In this document: piece after piece, positions 6,093-59,170 of the stretch
How positions within the stretch are numbered: the stretch's first letter is position 1
Layout of the letters: the number at the start of each line of letters is the position of its first letter
DNA from: Amaricoccus sp.
Lineage (GTDB): Bacteria > Pseudomonadota > Alphaproteobacteria > Rhodobacterales > Rhodobacteraceae
Direction: 5' to 3'
Assembly: GCF_017993425.1 (NCBI RefSeq)
Contig: NZ_JAGOMQ010000001.1
Span: 153,755-217,754, forward strand
DNA length: 64,000 bases
The notes under the pieces: generated by a model
What the model was told of the DNA's origin: nothing
The model's input: the letters and a program-made list of their open reading frames with translations, nothing else
Database searches by the model: none
Translations under genes and position numbers: made by a program

Positions 6093-6124
6093 TTCACGCG
6101 TGAATATTCGCTAAGTCATTGATT
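6093..6124 (+). repeat. Short palindrome repeat, copy 1 of 5
   Basis: The perfect palindrome TTCACGCGTGAA (6093-6104) is followed by the conserved tail TATTCGCTAAGTCATTGATT. The same unit occurs at 19318 (reversed), 25198, 25319 and 58541. This copy lies 59 bases after the emrB stop and about 30 bases before a MITE copy. Role unknown: a protein binding site or a small dispersed repeat are both possible. Confidence 0.8.
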
Positions 6125-6149: not shown

Positions 6150-6490
6150 CCCGACGCGCCACGACACGACAGGAGCCGGTCGCCGCCCGAGGCTGCGGCG
6201 CTCGCCCCGACCGAAGCGGGCTCTGCCCGCGAGGCTACGGCGCGACGAGCGAAAGCACGGCTTTCGCCGCGCCGACGGCCGGAGCGCATTGGCGCGGAGG
6301 CCGTGGGGGGTCCAGATTTCCACGCACCGCGCCATCCGGCCGTGATCGCCCCGGCGAGCGCGGAATCGCGCTCGCCCCCCGCAGGGGCGATCGCGGACGG
6401 ATTTGCCACGGGTCAAATCCGTCTGGCTTCACCGTCCCGCACCCTCCCGACCGATATTTCTCTCCACTGTCGTGTAGTGTGCCCGACGCG
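6150..6490 (-). mobile_element. MITE-like element, copy 1 (reverse orientation), with 9-bp target duplication
   Basis: The element itself spans 6159-6481 (323 bp) and is flanked by CCCGACGCG on both sides (6150-6158 and 6482-6490). Its right end reads CTGTCGTGTAGTGTG, the inverted repeat of the family; its left end (CCACGACACGACAGG) is slightly diverged. Inside, from right to left, are the family hairpins: GACGGATTTG with CAAATCCGTC, GGCGAGCGCG with CGCGCTCGCC, GCGAAAGC with GCTTTCGC, and GCGGGC with GCCCGC. There is no believable reading frame. The identity of the two flanks continues about 13 bases past the 9-bp duplication into sequence like the element end, so a second partial end may abut it. 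Confidence 0.85.
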
Positions 6491-6511
6491 CCACGACACG
6501 ACACCAACGCC

Positions 6512-6715
6512 GTGCCCCCTCATGGCCAGTCGCCCGTGATGCTGCCGGACGAGCCTGAGAAGATGCGAACGGGCGACATCTCGATCATGCTTGTTTGCAC
6601 GCAAATATAATTCGAAATATATTTGCAAATATTTTGAATATAACGGTGAAAATCATTGCACATTCATCAGCGCCGCATGCATTTCGCGGCGCCGTTCGAT
6701 TCACTTGAAGCTTGC
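6512..6715. repeat. AT-rich palindromic repeat, copy 1 of 3
   Basis: About 204 bp, closely similar to 58971-59170; its right half also resembles 31041-31144. It contains an AT-rich core (CAAATATAATTCGAAATATA) and a hairpin-forming GC motif (CGCCGC ... GCGGCG at about 6670-6695) and ends with CTTGAAGCTTGC. In all three places it lies downstream of a minus-strand gene (here DUF1178, stop at 6865). It may be a 3'-end or terminator-related element, or the remnant of an insertion. Confidence 0.75.
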
Positions 6716-6745
6716 ACGCTTCCTGCCCCGACCGCTCCGCGGCGA

Positions 6746-6773
6746 GCAGGTTGACATGCGCATGTCAACCTGC
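6746..6773. repeat. Perfect 28-bp palindrome without a loop
   Basis: Half-site GCAGGTTGACATGC at 6746-6759 is followed directly by its exact reverse complement at 6760-6773. The centre TTGACATGCGCATGTCAA looks like an operator for a dimeric regulator, but no gene starts nearby: the closest coding end is the DUF1178 stop at 6865. The stretch 6774-6864 also contains CCGTCGTGTAGCGTG (about 6824-6838), which resembles the end of the MITE family. Confidence 0.7.
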
Positions 6774-6864
6774 GGGAGGCGTCGCGAGGCGAGACGTCGC
6801 CGCGGGTCGACCCTTGCCGCCTCCGTCGTGTAGCGTGCCTGACGCGACAGGCCGCGCTCGCCGC

Positions 6865-8664: not shown

Positions 8665-8986
8665 GCACAGGGCCTTGCGACGGGGAAGCGAGCGCCGCGC
8701 CCGTGGCAGGCCGCGACGGCGCCGCCAGACGGATTTGACCCGTGGCAAATCCGTCCGCGCTCGCCCCTCGGGGGGCGAGCGCGTTGCCGCGCTCGCCGGG
8801 GCGATCACGGACGGATTGCGCGCTCCCGGAGAAATCTGCGCTCCTCACGGCCTCCGCGCGCAACCGCGCTCCAGCCGTCGGCGCGGCGAAAGCAGGGCTT
8901 TCGCTTGTCGCGCCGTGGCCTCGCGGGCAAGCCCGCTTCGGTCGATCGGAGGCCCCTCCGGGCGCGCGGGCGTCGTCCGGGGCACG
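8665..8986 (+). mobile_element. MITE-like element, copy 2 (forward), diverged ends
   Basis: The conserved core runs from GCCAGACGGATTTGACCCG (8724) to GCCCGCTTCGGTCG (8944) and has all internal hairpins of the family. The ends (near GCACAGGG and CGTCGTCCGGGGCACG) are only weakly recognisable, and no clear target duplication remains, so this looks like an old copy. It fills most of the 443-base gap between phoR and phoU. Confidence 0.7.
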
Positions 8987-11610: not shown

Positions 11611-14600
11611 ATGGCCACTTTCATCGTGACGAACAATGCCGACAGCGGCGCGGGATCGCTCCGGCAGGCGGCGCTCGACGCGAACGCCAGCGGCGGCGCG
11701 GACACGATCAGCTTCGACGCGGGCTTCTTCGACGGCGAGGCGGCGGACGTGATCCGGCTGACCGGCGGCCCGATCAACGTAAGCGGGGAGCTGACCATCG
11801 ACGGCGGCGCGGCGCGCGTCGTCATCACCGGCGACGCGAACGGCGACGACGTGGTCGGCGCCGACGGGATAACGGACGTCGACGCCTCCGGCGCGGCGCT
11901 CCTCGACGACAACAGCCGCATCTTCGAGGGCGCCGCGACGCTGACGCTCGACGGCCTCACGCTGACCGGCGGCCGGACGACGGCGGACACCAGCCATGGC
12001 GGCGCGGTCGCCGTGAACGTGGTGACGCTGGTCAATTCCACGATCGCGGGCAACAGCACCGCCGGCGATTTCTCGCGCGGCGGCGGGATCGTCGCCTACG
12101 TGCTGCATGTGGAGAACAGCGAGATCCGCGACAACCGGACGTCGGGCTTCGCAGCGAACGGCGGGGGCGCGTTCGTGTTCACCTCGGCCGAGATCGTCGG
12201 CAGCACGATCAGCGGCAATGCGGCGACCGGATACGTCGCCTATGGCGGCGGCCTCTACGCGGTGACGGCGACCCTCGCCAACAGCACGGTGAGCGGCAAC
12301 CGCGTGACGGGCGCGCTCGGCTTAGGCGGCGGGATCGCCGGCGACTTCGCCGAGCTGACCAGCACCACGGTGACCGGCAACGCCGCCACCGGAGCCAATA
12401 GCGCGGCCGGGGGCATCTTCGTCGCGAACTTCGAGCTGACCGACAGCATCGTGCTCGGCAACGTCGCGACGAACGTCGCGTCCAGCGAGATCGGCGGCAA
12501 TGCGACCCTCGCCGGCGGCAACATCGTCGGCACGAACCTCTTCGACGGGACGGACGACGTGGGCGACGTGACCGCGGCCGACGTCTACGCCGAGACGGCG
12601 GCGATCGCGCCCGGGGTGCTGGCGGGCGTCCTCGCCGACAACGGCGGGCCGACGCGGACGGTGCTGATCCGCGCCGGCGGCGCGGCGGTGGATGCGGGCG
12701 GGACGACGGCGCTCGCGACCGACCAGCGCGGCGAGGCGCGGGTCTCGGGCGACGCGGCCGACCTCGGGGCGGTCGAGCTGCAGCGCGAGGCGGGCGGCCT
12801 CGTGGTGACGACGGCCGCGGACGTGGTGGACGCCTTCGACGGGCTGACCTCGCTGCGCGAGGCGGTGGCCTTCGCCGACGCGCAGGCGGGGGCGGACACG
12901 ATCACCTTCGACGCCTCGGTCTTCGACGGCGAGGCTGCGGACGTCATCCGGTTGACCGGCGGGCAGATCGGGATCGCCGGGGCGCTGACCATCGACGGCG
13001 GGGCTGCGCGGGTGGTGATCACCAGCGACGCGGGCGGGAACGACGTGGTCGACGCGCGGGGGATCACCGACGTCGACGCGAGCCTCGCGGCGGGGGGCAT
13101 GGACGACAACGGGCGGATCTTCGCCGCGACGGCGGCGCTGACGCTCGACGGGCTGGTCCTGACCGGCGGGCGGGCGTTCGGGCAGGGCGGCGCGGCGATC
13201 GGCCGCGGCGGCGCGATCCACGGCACGGACGTGACGCTGATCGACAGCGAGATCGCGGGGAACGTCGTGACGGCCTATATCGGGTCGGGCGGCGCCGTTT
13301 ACGCCACCGGAACGCTGCGGCTCACCGGCAGCACGGTGAGCGGCAACGCCGTCATCGGCGCCTACGCCGGCGGCGGCGGCGCCTTCGCCGACAGCGCCAT
13401 CCTCGTCAACTCGACGATCAGCGGCAACCGCGCGACGGGAGGCGACGGGGGCTACGGCGGGGGCGTCCTCACGCGGAACTCGCTCTCGGCGCAGAACGTC
13501 ACGGTCACCGGCAACAGCGTCGAGGGCGACACCGCGATCGGGGCGGGGCTTCTGGCCAGCGGGACGCTGACGCTCGCCGACAGCATCGTGCTTGGCAACC
13601 ACGGGGCCGACGGGGCCTTCGGGTTCGGGTCGACGGCGCTCGTCGGCGGCAACATCCTCGACGGCGACCTCCTCGACGGATCGACCGACGTGGGCGACGT
13701 GACCGCCGCGGCGGTGTTCGCCCAGACGGCGGAGATCGCGCCCGGGGTGCTGGCGGGCGTGCTGGCCGACAATGGCGGGCCGACGCGGACGGTGGCGATC
13801 CTCGCGGACGGGCCGGCGGCGGGGGCGGCGGATCCGGCGAGCGCGACGGCCGCGGACCAGCGCGGGGAGGCCCGCGACGCGGCGCCGGACCTCGGGGCCT
13901 ACGAGGCGGCGCAGCCGGATCTGGAGAAGGCGGGCACGATCGGCTTCGCGCTGCTGCAGATCGACACCAACGGCAAGGCGAAGGGCGGCGCGATCAACGC
14001 GCCGGCGCCGGCGGAGCTGAACGACATCGACCCGGCCTGGGTGCGCCCGGCGTCGAAGGGCCTCGCGTTCCGCCAGCTCGTCGCGCTCGTCGACGACGAC
14101 GGCGATCCGGGGACGGGCGCGGCGGCGCTGAAGGGCTTCGACGCGGCGATGAACCTCTCGGACGCGGGCAAGGCCGGGCGGGTGACCTCGCTCGCCGTCG
14201 ACAACGGCGGCGACGATCCGGTGCTGGTGCGGGGCTGGGGCCGGATCGCCCGCGACGACGCGGGCGACCTGACCGACGCGGTGCGCTTCGACGCCGGGCG
14301 CGGCTTCGGGCTCGACAACGCCCGCGACGGCTCGACCATGGCGCGCTGGCTCAACAATGGGGACTCGCTCGACTTCGCGCTGGCCGACGCCGAGATCGCC
14401 GCGGCGCGCTTCACCGTCGCGGTCCGCAACGCCGACGGGCGGAGCGCCACCCGCGAGACCGCGACGCTCGCGCTCGACTTCGACGGCGACGCCATCGTCG
14501 AGCGGAGCGGCCGCGGCTTCGACACCGACGCGCTCGTGCTGATCGGCGTCCACAACCGCGAGACGGTGGAGATCGACTTCCTGGCCGAGGAGATCCGGGT

Positions 14601-14742
14601 GGCCGGCGCGCTGGTGGGCGGGGTCGGCGCGGGGTTCTGGGACGCCTTCGCGGCCGAGGGCTCGGACAACCTGACGATCGGCACGCGCGCCGACGACCGG
14701 GTGGGGCTGGCGCTGTCGGGGCTGGAGCTCGACTATGTCTGA
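11611..14742 (+). CDS. Large beta-helix protein with internal duplication, probably secreted
   Basis: 1043 residues with no signal peptide. Two long homologous halves (about 1-390 and 395-780) share the same blocks: [58 protein letters not shown], and [19 protein letters not shown]. Each half contains short N.T..GN steps typical of right-handed parallel beta-helices (choice-of-anchor Q type proteins). The last 260 residues are different, rich in D, A and G, and match nothing I know. Such proteins are usually exported surface or extracellular molecules; the absence of an N-terminal signal suggests a type I route, which is an inference. It stands alone, with about 270 bases before it that hold nothing recognisable. 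Confidence 0.8.
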
Positions 14743-16724: not shown

Positions 16725-17033
16725 CCACGGGACCGGGGAGCCCACGTCCGGTCCGGGACAGGTCGCGCCGTCGAAGCCCGACGGATTTGACCCGCGGCAA
16801 ATCCGTCCGCGCTCGCCCCTGCGGGGGGCGAGCGCGTCGCCGCGCTCGCCGGGGCGCTCACGGACGGATTGCGCGCTACGGGGAAATCTGCGCCCCTGAC
16901 GGCCTCCGCGCCAACGCGCTCCGGCCGTCGGCGCGGCGAAAGCAGTGCTTTCGCCTGTCGCGCCGTAACCTCGCGGGCAAGGCCCGCTTCGGACGTTCGG
17001 CGCCACCCGGCTCCAGCACGGACGCCCCGTGCC
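16725..17033 (+). mobile_element. MITE-like element, copy 3 (forward), diverged ends
   Basis: The core from GCCCGACGGATTTGACCCG (16776) to GCCCGCTTCGGACG (16994) matches the family closely, including the hairpin around GACGGATTTG and the GGCGAGCGCG palindrome. Ends are degenerate (CACGGGACCGGGGAG on the left, GACGCCCCGTGCC on the right) and no target duplication is clear. It occupies the 379-base gap between tsaD and gpsA, which normally are close together. Confidence 0.7.
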
Positions 17034-18924: not shown

Positions 18925-19263
18925 CCACGCCGCATGACGCCTGCTTGCCCTGCCCGAGGACGGACGCGCACGCCGGGCGACCGAAGCGGGCTTGCCCGCG
19001 AGGCTACGGCGCGACAAGCGAAAGCCCGGCTTTCGCCGCGCCGACGGCTGGAGCGCGGTTGCGCGCGGAAGCCGTGAGGGGCGCCGATTTCTGCGGAAGC
19101 GCGCCATCCGTCCGTGAGCGCCCCGGCGAGCGCGGCAACGCGCTCGCCCCCCGCAGGGGCGATCGCGGACGGATTTGCCGCGGGTCAAATCCGTCTGGCG
19201 TCCCCGTCGCGGCCTGCTTCCGGCCAGGTTTTCTCTCCACTGGGGTTGCGTGTGCCATGCCGC
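18925..19263 (-). mobile_element. MITE-like element, copy 4 (reverse), near-perfect 9-bp target duplication
   Basis: The element spans 18934-19254 (321 bp). Flanks are CCACGCCGC (18925-18933) and CCATGCCGC (19255-19263), 8 of 9 identical. The right end reads CTCTCCACTGGGGTTGCGTGTG, close to the family end; the left end is decayed. The core has GCCCGCGAGGC, GCGAAAGCCCGGCTTTCGC and the CAAATCCGTCTGGC hairpin arm. It lies in the 567-base gap between the EVE gene and the permease. Confidence 0.8.
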
Positions 19264-19296: not shown

Positions 19297-19329
19297 GAAT
19301 CAATGGCTTAGCGAATTTTCACGCGTGAA
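19297..19329 (-). repeat. Short palindrome repeat, copy 2 of 5 (reversed)
   Basis: TTCACGCGTGAA at 19318-19329 is preceded by AGAATCAATGGCTTAGCGAA, the reverse complement of the tail found at the other copies. It lies 59 bases before the permease start codon, so it could be read as an upstream site, and about 40 bases from a MITE copy. Confidence 0.8.
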
Positions 19330-25189: not shown

Positions 25190-25373
25190 GCGGGGTGTTC
25201 ACGCGTGAAAATTGTCCAAGTCATTGATTCTTCGTCGGGGCGGCGAGCCTGCCCCGCGTTCGTCGGCGTGGACGCTCGGGTCGGGCAGGGTCGTCTGCAA
25301 GCGGCGCTGAGCGGGGTGTTCACGCGTGAAAATTAGCTAAGCCATTGATTCTTCGTAGATTGACGCCGGAGAC
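25186..25373 (+). repeat. Short palindrome repeat, copies 3 and 4, as a direct repeat
   Basis: TTCACGCGTGAA occurs at 25198-25209 and 25319-25330, 121 bases apart. Both copies carry the same lead (GCTGAGCGGGGTG) and tail (AATT, six variable bases, AGTCATTGATTCTTCGT or AGCCATTGATTCTTCGT), giving about 50 bp of near-identical direct repeat. The segment between them has no reading frame of interest. This is the first part of a 1-kb gene-free stretch (25190-26213). Confidence 0.8.
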
Positions 25374-25384
25374 GCCGCGCGCGC

Positions 25385-25720
25385 CACACTGCACGACGGT
25401 GGAGAGGAAGCCCTGCCCGAAGCAGGTCGCGACGCCGACGCCAGACGGATTTGACCCGTGGCAAATCCGTCCGCGATCGCCCCTGCGGGGGGCGAGCGCG
25501 TTGCCGCGCTCGCCGGGGCGATCACGGACGGATGGCGCGCTTCCGGAGAAATCGGCGCCCCTCACGGCTTCCGCGCGCAACCGCGCTCCAGCCGTCGGCG
25601 CGGCGAAAGCAGGGCTTTCGCCTGTCGCGCCGGGCCTCGCGGGCAAGCCCGCTTCGGTCGGTCGGTCGGCGCGCGCGCGCCCCGTGGATCCAGCAGAGCA
25701 GACAGGTGTCGTGCAGTGTG
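25385..25720 (+). mobile_element. MITE-like element, copy 5 (forward)
   Basis: 336 bp with good inverted ends: CACACTGCACGACGGTGGAG on the left and GTGTCGTGCAGTGTG on the right. The core begins GCCAGACGGATTTGACCCG and ends GCCCGCTTCGGTCG, with all family hairpins. The left flank (CCGCGCGCG) and right flank (CCACGCGCC) agree at 7 of 9 positions, so a decayed target duplication is possible. Copy 6 follows 8 bases downstream in the same orientation. Confidence 0.85.
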
Positions 25721-25728
25721 CCACGCGC

Positions 25729-26051
25729 CACACTGCACGACAGTGGAGAGCAAACCCGTCCGAAGGTAGGTCGCGACGGTGAAGCCAGACGGATTTGACC
25801 CGCGGCAAATCCGTCCGCGATCGCCCCTGTGGGGGGCGAGCGCGATTCCGCGCTCGCCGGGGCGCTCACGGAAGAATGGCGCGCGACGGAGAAATCTTCA
25901 CCCCTCACGGCTTCCGCGCCAACGCGCTCCAGCCGTCGGCGCGGCGAAAGCAATGCTTTCGCTTGTCGCGCCGAGCCTCGCGGGCAAGCCCGCTTCGGTC
26001 GATCGGCGCGGCCCGGCATGGGGCGGCGACGAGTCCGTGTCCTGCAGTGTG
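25729..26051 (+). mobile_element. MITE-like element, copy 6 (forward), in tandem with copy 5
   Basis: 323 bp. Left end CACACTGCACGACAGTGGAG, right end GTGTCCTGCAGTGTG. It is flanked by CCACGCGC on both sides (25721-25728 and 26053-26060), an 8-bp target duplication; adding the adjoining base gives 8 of 9. The right-hand copy of this flank is followed by TACACGACGGAGGCGG, another end-like sequence, so a third, truncated element may follow. Confidence 0.85.
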
Positions 26052-31040: not shown

Positions 31041-31144
31041 AATTTGCGCGCAAATATATTTCGAAATATTTTGAATATAAACGGTGAAAATCATTGCATC
31101 GTTGGCAGCGCCGCATTTCGCGGCGCCGTTCGAATCACTTTGCA
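31041..31144. repeat. AT-rich palindromic repeat, copy 2 of 3
   Basis: It begins with the perfect palindrome ATTTGCGCGCAAAT (31042-31055), then ATATTTCGAAATAT, then AACGGTGAAAATCATTGCAT and the GC hairpin GCGCCGCATTTCGCGGCGCC, ending CGAATCACTTTGCAG. It matches the right half of the copies at 6512 and 58971. It lies about 95 bases downstream of the prs stop (minus strand). The rest of the 650-base gap (30667-31040) shows no gene or repeat that I can name. Confidence 0.75.
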
Positions 31145-38051: not shown

Positions 38052-38353
38052 TGGACCGAACGACAGGAAGCCGATGGCCGACCGACCGACGCGGGCTCCG
38101 CCCGCGAGGCTGCGGCGCGACAAGCGAAAGCACGGCTTTCGCCGCGCCGACGACCGGAGCACGTTGGCGCGGAGGTCGTCAGGGATGAAGATTTCCCCGT
38201 TGCGCGCCATCCGTCCGTGATCGCCCCGGCGAGCGCGGAATCGCGCTCGCCCCCCGAGGGGCGATCGCGGACGGATTTGCCACGGGTCAAATCCGTCTGG
38301 CGTCAGTGTCGCGGCCCATTCCTCCCGATCCGTGGCGTCAGCCGGGATGTGTG
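38052..38353 (-). mobile_element. MITE-like element, copy 7 (reverse), eroded
   Basis: The core (38090-38305) is close to the family: GCGAAAGCACGGCTTTCGC, GGCGAGCGCGGAATCGCGC, and CAAATCCGTCTGGC at the right side. The left end ACCGAACGACAGGAAGCC and right end GGGATGTGTG are diverged, and the flanks do not match. Just left of it (38022-38037) CTAGCGAATTCACAC resembles a broken copy of the 12-bp palindrome unit. The rest of the 458-base gap (37946-38403) has nothing further. Confidence 0.7.
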
Positions 38354-58540: not shown

Positions 58541-58573
58541 TTCACGCGTGAATATTCGGCAAGCCATTGATTT
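58541..58573 (+). repeat. Short palindrome repeat, copy 5 of 5
   Basis: TTCACGCGTGAA at 58541-58552, followed by TATTCGGCAAGCCATTGATT. It is located 36 bases after the gnd stop and 55 bases before a MITE copy, as at 6093. Confidence 0.8.
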
Positions 58574-58597: not shown

Positions 58598-58939
58598 CGA
58601 GGCCCGCACACTACACGACAGTGGAGAGAAATATCGGTCGGGAGGGTGCGGGACGGTGAAGCCAGACGGATTTGACCCGTGGCGAATCCGTCTGCGATCG
58701 CCCCTGCGGGGGGCGAGCGCGATTCCGCGCTCGCCGGGGCGATCACGGCCGGATTGCGCGGTGCGTGGAAATCTGGACCCCCCACGGCCTCCGCGCCAAT
58801 GCGCTCCGGCCGTCGGCGCGGCGAAAGCCGGGCTTTCGCTTGTCGCGCCGCAGCCTCGCGGGCAGAGCCCGCTTCGGTCGGGGCGAGCGCCGCAGCCTCG
58901 GGCGGCGACCGGCTCCTGTCGTGTAGTGTGCGAGGCCCG
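58598..58939 (+). mobile_element. MITE-like element, copy 8 (forward), best preserved, perfect 9-bp target duplication
   Basis: The element spans 58607-58930 (324 bp). It starts CACACTACACGACAG and ends CTGTCGTGTAGTGTG, a perfect 15-bp terminal inverted repeat. CGAGGCCCG flanks it at 58598-58606 and 58931-58939. Inside: GCCAGACGGATTTGACCCG, hairpins at GGCGAGCGCGATTCCGCGC and GCGAAAGCCGGGCTTTCGC, and GCCCGCTTCGGTCG. Relative to the neighbouring repeats its orientation is opposite to that of copy 1, which sits between the same two repeat types. Confidence 0.92.
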
Positions 58940-58970
58940 ACCGCGCTTCGCGACTCTTGCCTTGCCCCGC

Positions 58971-59170
58971 GTGCCCCTCATGGCCCATCGCCCGCGATGC
59001 GCGCCGGACGGGCCCGAGCAAATGCGAACGGGCGACATCTTGACCATGTTTATTTGCGCGCAAATATAATTCGAAATATATTTGCAGATATTTTGAATAT
59101 AATGGCAAAAATTATTGCACATTCATCAGCACCGCATTTCGCGGCGCCGCTCGATTCACTTGAAGCTTGC
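58971..59170. repeat. AT-rich palindromic repeat, copy 3 of 3
   Basis: 200 bp, closely similar to 6512-6715 from GTGCCCCTCATGGCC to CTTGAAGCTTGC. It contains the perfect palindrome TATTTGCGCGCAAATA (59051-59066), the core AATTCGAAATATATTTGC and the GC hairpin around CCGCATTTCGCGG. It lies about 90 bases downstream of the VPLPA gene stop (minus strand). With the palindrome unit and the MITE it fills the 757-base gap between gnd and that gene. Confidence 0.8.

Follow-up and report, generated by a model that had tools for sequence, protein, structure and literature searches.

The window, by which we mean the whole 64-kb stretch of DNA that was analysed, comes from a high-GC alphaproteobacterium that carries a swarm of small non-coding transposons. 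An earlier note on this DNA had described an unnamed family of miniature elements (MITEs) of about 320 bp, with inverted ends and 9-bp target duplications, in eight copies. The copy at 58607-58930 is taken here as the reference; it is 324 bp long, has 15-bp inverted ends (CACACTACACGACAG / CTGTCGTGTAGTGTG) that are both exact and is flanked by a perfect 9-bp duplication, CGAGGCCCG (Table 1). BLAST recovers all eight cores in the window at 88-100% identity, and the duplications which that note gave as perfect at 58598/58931 and 6150/6482 are indeed so, those claimed for the copy at 25729 being only related 8-mers, CCACGCGC in front and CCCACGCG behind. Both ends are exact only in the reference copy, those of the copies at 6159, 25385 and 25729 being partly degenerate, and no match to CACACTACACGACAG within 3 mismatches was found at the copies near 8665, 16725, 18934 and 38052.

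Next to several copies lies a second feature, hereafter the target unit, that consists of a 12-bp palindrome, a match to the consensus for the host protein IHF and a weaker dyad. Five of the eight copies adjoin such a unit or sit in an array beside one, the exceptions being those at 8665, 16725 and 38052; three of the five (58607, 6159 and 25385) start 66 bp after the palindrome and the copy at 25729 is stacked behind that at 25385. Beyond the element that follows the 6159 copy there is a third 9-mer, CCTGACGCG, slightly altered, at 6838-6846.

Table 1. Coordinates of the MITE copies, their duplications and the target-unit features in the window
Feature	Position	Strand	Remarks
Reference MITE	58607-58930, core 58654-58881	+	Both terminal inverted repeats exact
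9-bp target duplication CGAGGCCCG, left	58598-58606		Flanks reference MITE
9-bp target duplication CGAGGCCCG, right	58931-58939		Flanks reference MITE
Palindrome TTCACGCGTGAA of target unit	58541-58552	+	MITE starts 66 bp from first base of palindrome
Exact IHF consensus AATCAATGGCTTG	58560-58572	-	First T of TTGAT to MITE, 40 bp
MITE copy, 98% identity	6159-6481, core 6207-6434	-	9-mer CCCGACGCG at 6150-6158 and 6482-6490
Palindrome TTCACGCGTGAA	6093-6104	+	First base to MITE at 6159, 66 bp
Exact IHF consensus AATCAATGACTTA	6112-6124	-	Beside MITE at 6159
Second non-coding element, related ends	6491-6837		Stacked after MITE at 6159
Palindrome TTCACGCGTGAA	25198-25209	+	Exact IHF site 25217-25229 (-); no element end at 66 bp
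Palindrome TTCACGCGTGAA	25319-25330	+	Exact IHF site 25338-25350 (-); MITE 66 bp past start
MITE copy, second end type	25385-25720, core 25437-25661	+	First in tandem pair
MITE copy	25729-26051, core 25777-26001	+	Second in tandem pair; 8-bp interval CCACGCGC after first
MITE core, degenerate ends (copy near 18934)	18978-19206	-	
Palindrome TTCACGCGTGAA	19318-19329	-	Exact IHF site 19298-19310 (+); adjacent MITE end degenerate, no inverted-repeat match at 66 bp
MITE core (copy near 8665)	8724-8944	+	No nearby palindrome or exact IHF site; insert missing in G003
MITE core (copy near 16725)	16773-16995	+	No nearby palindrome or exact IHF site; genes abut in G003
MITE core (copy near 38052)	38082-38305	-	No nearby palindrome or exact IHF site

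Two other features were seen in the window. A second non-coding repeat with an AT-rich middle (...TTCGATTCACTTGAAGC...) and related inverted ends stands behind MITEs at 6491-6837 and at about 58940-59165, with part of it found again at 31080-31140, and a long reading frame at 11611-14742 has internal repeats of 41-243 bp.

The MITE family and its IS4-type relative

A BLAST search for genomic copies, which the earlier note had proposed as a check, extends the family well beyond the window: the 4.24-Mb genome (102 contigs) holds at least 50 matches, at least 46 of them 230 bp or longer and four shorter than 70 bp, these counts being lower bounds as 40 of 442 candidates were scored. The end CACACTACACGACAG occurs 78+75 times in the genome at up to 2 mismatches against 0+1 for the reversed control, and the MITE ends are therefore present beyond chance. 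The strong internal folding that the hairpins read from the letters would imply is borne out (z = -8.8 as RNA and -8.0 as DNA). A scan of the contig collection with a pattern for the MITE core gave at least four stretches, and there were no matches to the MITE among plasmids by blastn, nor any in the window to Rfam at the gathering threshold.

The core is also found in the congener G006, in 19 matches of 71-89% identity, and none of the six aligned G006 loci (L031, L039, L043, L046, L049 and L052) has inverted ends at the core. When 12 copies from this genome were placed in a hand-chosen alignment with six from G006, 15 of 61 predicted pairs had changes on both sides that keep the pair. The presence of the core in G006 without inverted ends, and with compensatory changes in its hairpins, gives the impression that IS ends have captured an older structured repeat.

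A longer element with a MITE-type end is present elsewhere in the genome, where several contigs start or stop inside it. Its left end and 75 transposase codons come from the end of contig 101, and its right end, with the stop codon falling within the inverted repeat, from the start of contig 99; five left junctions were found altogether. Assembly breaks fall within elements of this group: contigs 8, 19, 22, 23 and 99 start about 127 bp into the insertion sequence (IS), contig 101 stops about 310 bp into it, and contigs 5 and 101 each start within a MITE. The full IS of this genome is unassembled and its transposase is known only from fragments, of which the 75-aa one, a partial sequence, shares 65% identity with an IS4 family transposase of Cereibacter azotoformans plasmid pORIO4, reaches E 0.061 with the NCBIfam IS4 model, which is under the cutoff, and has no Pfam match. 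The pORIO4 record contains a complete relative of 1183 bp with ends CACACTACACGAC / CATACTACACGAC and a 9-bp duplication, GCAAATACC; a full-length relative is also present in the congener G007, one of its ends being identical and the other not recognised. Both of these full-length transposases score above cutoff with Pfam DDE_Tnp_1 and with NCBIfam transpos_IS4_2 (NF033591). Among plasmids, one housekeeping protein and the transposase fragment find their best matches in Paracoccus and Cereibacter, which makes a lineage within Rhodobacterales likely.

The 9-bp duplications of the MITEs and of the Cereibacter relative fit the length of about 10 bp expected of the IS4 family. In a table of PMC2266710 the subgroup IS4Sa is given ends of the form CA------T, a length of 1150-1750 bp and repeats of 8-10 bp; the CA ends, the 1183 bp of the relative and the 9-bp repeats all agree with this, but base 9 is A and the element is therefore not placed in IS4Sa.

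By their sequence, then, the small non-coding elements are a family of MITEs, and an IS4-type insertion sequence has the same inverted ends. They are short, at 324 bp, with terminal inverted repeats, their target duplications are of a single length (9 bp, allowing one mismatch, at 23 of 32 loci), and a parent with the same ends is found in the genome, where CACACTACACGAC ends stand beside a transposase fragment at contig ends. The MITEs would be moved in trans by the IS4-type transposase. It had been proposed that no transposase lies in the window and that an IS elsewhere mobilises the copies; tblastn with the Cereibacter transposase, a search for that one family, found none in the window, and the element with the same ends and the IS4-type fragment lie elsewhere in the genome. 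The MITE reading of the earlier note is supported in these respects; the near-fixed distance of most copies examined from a palindrome-plus-IHF motif, described below, had not been noticed there.

Elements that are stacked frequently have a 9-mer in common. At 19 of 31 tandem junctions, defined as two end-like sequences (at most 3 mismatches) 7-11 bp apart and possibly including some chance pairs, the sequence between the ends recurs at an outer flank with at least 7 bases the same, and once it recurs inverted. The MITE arrays also contain elements of other types whose ends are related, for example the one at 6491-6837. We read the shared 9-mers as signs of successive insertion into one target, in which case the newest element of an array would be the one nearest the target unit. 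In the tandem MITE pair at L119:1135-1822 the middle 9-mer is inverted relative to the outer ones.

The target unit and its distance from the elements

The 12-bp palindrome TTCACGCGTGAA is common to MITE flanks at a constant distance, and exact copies number 110 in the genome and 0 in the reversed control. Sixty distinct sites, some located through MITEs and others through the palindrome, align as TGTTCACGCGTGAAWATT-N4-AAGYCATTGATTT followed by the weaker dyad. Read on the opposite strand, the invariant columns YAANNNNTTGATW give WATCAANNNNTTR, which PMC3281130 quotes as the IHF consensus. The window contains five exact matches to this consensus, all of them in these motifs, compared with a mean of 0.07 and a maximum of 1 in 100 shuffles. 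A GC3 heuristic for reading frames puts 43 of 59 units directly after a gene that reads towards them and seven near a gene reading away, and leaves nine undecided. With its many copies, its palindrome and its place behind stop codons the unit resembles the REP/RIP-like repeats, i.e. short extragenic palindromic repeats; it is probably a host extragenic element and, on the consensus match, a candidate for binding by IHF.

The motif had no exact pattern match in viral contigs and no blastn match among plasmids and phages at E 0.1, and no mention of the string TTCACGCGTGAA was found in the open-access literature searched. A pattern tied to TTCACGCGTGAA gave 0 of 100 in a search of other genomes; a related form nevertheless occurs in the congener G008. 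That the motif might be one terminus of a larger element finishing in the AT-rich repeat at 59003-59137 was dropped because that repeat follows only some of the 60 sites. An IS200/IS605 end, for its TTGAT, is no more than a conjecture.

The distance between unit and element was measured in two ways. For the first, 40 MITE loci, which are the 46 long BLAST matches with six second array members merged, were searched at 36-44 bp from the element end, and 32 of them have an IHF consensus with no more than 2 mismatches (24 exact, seven with one, one with two) whose TTGAT starts 37-41 bp from that end, 28 of these at 40-41 bp. Among 5326 control windows 18 scored, two of these at 0-1 mismatch; this count is per window, whereas a locus has several end-like sites to offer. 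The MITE stands in either orientation towards the motif (20 loci against 12), and the 9-bp duplication remains intact to within 1 mismatch at 23 of the 32. For the second, the first 50 exact palindromes by contig order were searched over 40-115 bp; the IHF half is present in 47 and absent in three, and in 30 of these 47 units an element end (up to 3 mismatches) lies 63-68 bp away, the remaining 17 being without one there, compared with 14 of 400 control windows of 75 bp from the same loci. The two samples, one palindrome-first and one MITE-first and therefore biased in opposite directions, agree on the spacing.

Insertion is positioned, to judge from the copies as they now stand: in most loci examined the gap to the TTGAT of an IHF consensus that follows a palindrome varies little and is usually 40-41 bp; we infer that the insertion point is set by this spacing and not by the 9-bp sequence. 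No IHF site was found by the test in eight of the 40 MITE loci within the 36-44 bp range, of which three (L019, L087 and L090) have a palindrome or a degenerate unit by eye. Two of the five left junctions of the IS itself lie 65-66 bp from a palindrome, and three have no clear unit, namely L104, L105, which abuts a MITE, and L108, which has a 3-mismatch IHF match at 40 bp. Such a unit site is absent at both flanks of the Cereibacter element and at the one G007 flank tested, and the insertion preference is therefore not general in the wider family; it would be peculiar to the present element or to its host.

The reading that we favour, and think probable, is of a MITE family with IS4-type ends whose insertion is spaced by the unit of palindrome and IHF consensus, presumably with IHF taking part. 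IHF would bind the unit and bend the DNA there, perhaps joined by a protein that binds the palindrome, and the IS4-type transposase complex would capture the bent DNA at the right edge of the unit; spacing from the unit, rather than the 9-bp sequence, would then fix the point of insertion.

The main rival is that the transposase is guided by the palindrome, acting through a protein of its own or as a hairpin, and that the IHF site, though part of the unit, is dispensable for insertion. The palindrome is near-invariant in the main class, though most sites were found through it, and it is retained where the IHF match is poor, L095, L009 and L019 still carrying a palindrome of the CACGCGTG type at a similar distance. 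Other palindromes hold the same geometry, as seen by eye and by script, at L096 (also of the CACGCGTG type), at L093 and L107 (GTCCCACAGTGGGAC type) and at L084 (GGGTTGCGCACGCGCAACCC); the palindrome can thus vary in sequence, as at L093 and L084, while the IHF half and the spacing persist, which makes direction by the palindrome the less likely account, at perhaps a minority chance.

A unit of the same plan is found in G008. The sequence CAAGYCATTGATTT occurs there 33 times at up to 1 mismatch, compared with 73 times in this genome and 0 in the reversed controls, and 30 fetched loci (L250 and L257-L285) yielded 25 distinct sites of the form GCCCACGCGTGAAAACC-N4-CAAGYCATTGATTT-N20-CTACCCAAGTGTTAACG, with a different palindrome, the same IHF half and a GTTAACG edge. 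The exact IHF consensus is kept in 23 of the 25. Neither the MITE nor the transposase fragment has a match in G008, and none of the 25 units has a matching inverted end at 40-115 bp, from which the unit appears independent of the transposon. The conserved unit of G008 stops about 40 bp past the start of TTGAT, which is the insertion point in this genome. By the GC3 heuristic 12 of the 25 lie behind a gene reading towards them, ten near one reading away and three are undecided, and there is no clear preference for gene ends. The unit appears to be an extragenic element in its own right, the right edge of which the MITEs appear to use.

The closest congener by the single protein compared (94% identity; it matches 6-phosphogluconate dehydrogenases) is G003, and it is without the inserts at 8665, 16725, 25385-26051 and 58607; the earlier note would have counted an absence of further genomic copies, or copies always at orthologous positions in distant relatives, against a transposon, and neither was found. 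An empty site with a single 9-mer, which it had predicted, is not cleanly seen in G003 because the intergenic DNA is too diverged. At L139 this genome has a unit with no MITE, and comparison with six congeners again gave no clean empty site, the two flanks matching different contigs in each; gene order may be broken there.

At 58541 and 25319 G003 lacks both unit and MITE, and the unit of L139, which is MITE-free in this genome, is absent from G003 too. This would suit a unit and MITE that are two parts of one composite mobile element and have spread together, as would the spacers between them, which by eye form a few look-alike groups. Such an arrangement is nevertheless improbable: the 9-bp duplication, which varies between loci, parts the unit from the MITE, either MITE end can face the unit, other element types and the IS itself take the same position, and no element end stands at that place in 17 of 47 units here or in any of the 25 in G008. 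That MITEs insert at random and survive only in the short 3' intergenic regions that contain units, as the 43 of 59 units just behind a gene reading towards them might suggest, is very improbable, as survival would not bring 28 of 32 loci to 40-41 bp, nor 30 of 47 units to 63-68 bp. The differing flanking genes and 9-mers likewise oppose a spacing that is an artefact of shared locus ancestry.

Target choice in relation to known systems

Positioned insertion and IHF-bent DNA are each familiar from other systems. Tn7 and Tn7-like elements insert at attTn7, a set number of bases away from the sequence that they recognise behind a gene and into variable target bases, using a targeting protein of their own and showing target immunity; the MITEs resemble them in the fixed distance and the variable target bases and differ in that stacked elements share one target. 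In CRISPR adaptation IHF-bent leader DNA positions the integrase at a fixed distance, but the enzyme is a different one and a role for IHF is suggested here by a consensus. The RIP/RIB elements of E. coli are repetitive, IHF-binding, palindromic extragenic elements, and the unit is like them an extragenic repeat that joins a palindrome with an IHF site; unlike them it has one palindrome plus a weak dyad, and a palindrome that differs between species, the likeness drawn here being one of architecture.

Tentatively, and with rather less confidence than we place in the reading favoured above, we propose that IHF is the targeting factor of an IS4-type transposon. Bound to a dispersed palindromic extragenic element, this DNA-bending host protein would position the transposase, and with it the MITEs, some 40 bp off with a precision of one or two base pairs; target immunity would be lacking, so that arrays of non-coding elements grow at gene ends.

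Association of insertion sequences with repeated palindromes has been reported before. According to passages in PMC1525189 and PMC2266710, copies of ISRm22 of Sinorhizobium meliloti (IS4 family, subgroup IS4Sa) lie in REP sequences and enter the axis of the palindrome with 6-bp repeats. The element described here is like ISRm22, as portrayed there, in being of IS4 type and associated with repeated extragenic palindromes, and unlike it in that insertion falls beyond the palindrome, some 60 bp away from the palindrome's centre, with variable 9-bp repeats and mostly of MITEs. Other IS that target REP sequences are listed in PMC1525189, namely ISPsy8, ISPa11, ISPpu9, ISPpu10 and ISRm19, with IS1397 and IS621 also named; strong selectivity for short intergenic repeated palindromes is common to these and to the present element, but they are of the IS3 or IS110 family and the ones detailed in that source insert inside the REP sequence at a fixed base. 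In the open-access literature searched, nothing closer was found on IHF-directed targeting of an IS or MITE, or on a fixed-distance target outside the repeat. Palindrome-seeking IS are already known, and the new variant is a target defined by spacing beside an IHF consensus.

The evidence suggests that a host protein may help to choose the landing sites of MITEs. If this is true, a host architectural protein would be the target selector of a simple transposon, which would explain the piling of non-coding elements behind genes, and the unit together with the MITE would offer a compact and testable natural model for spacing-directed insertion.
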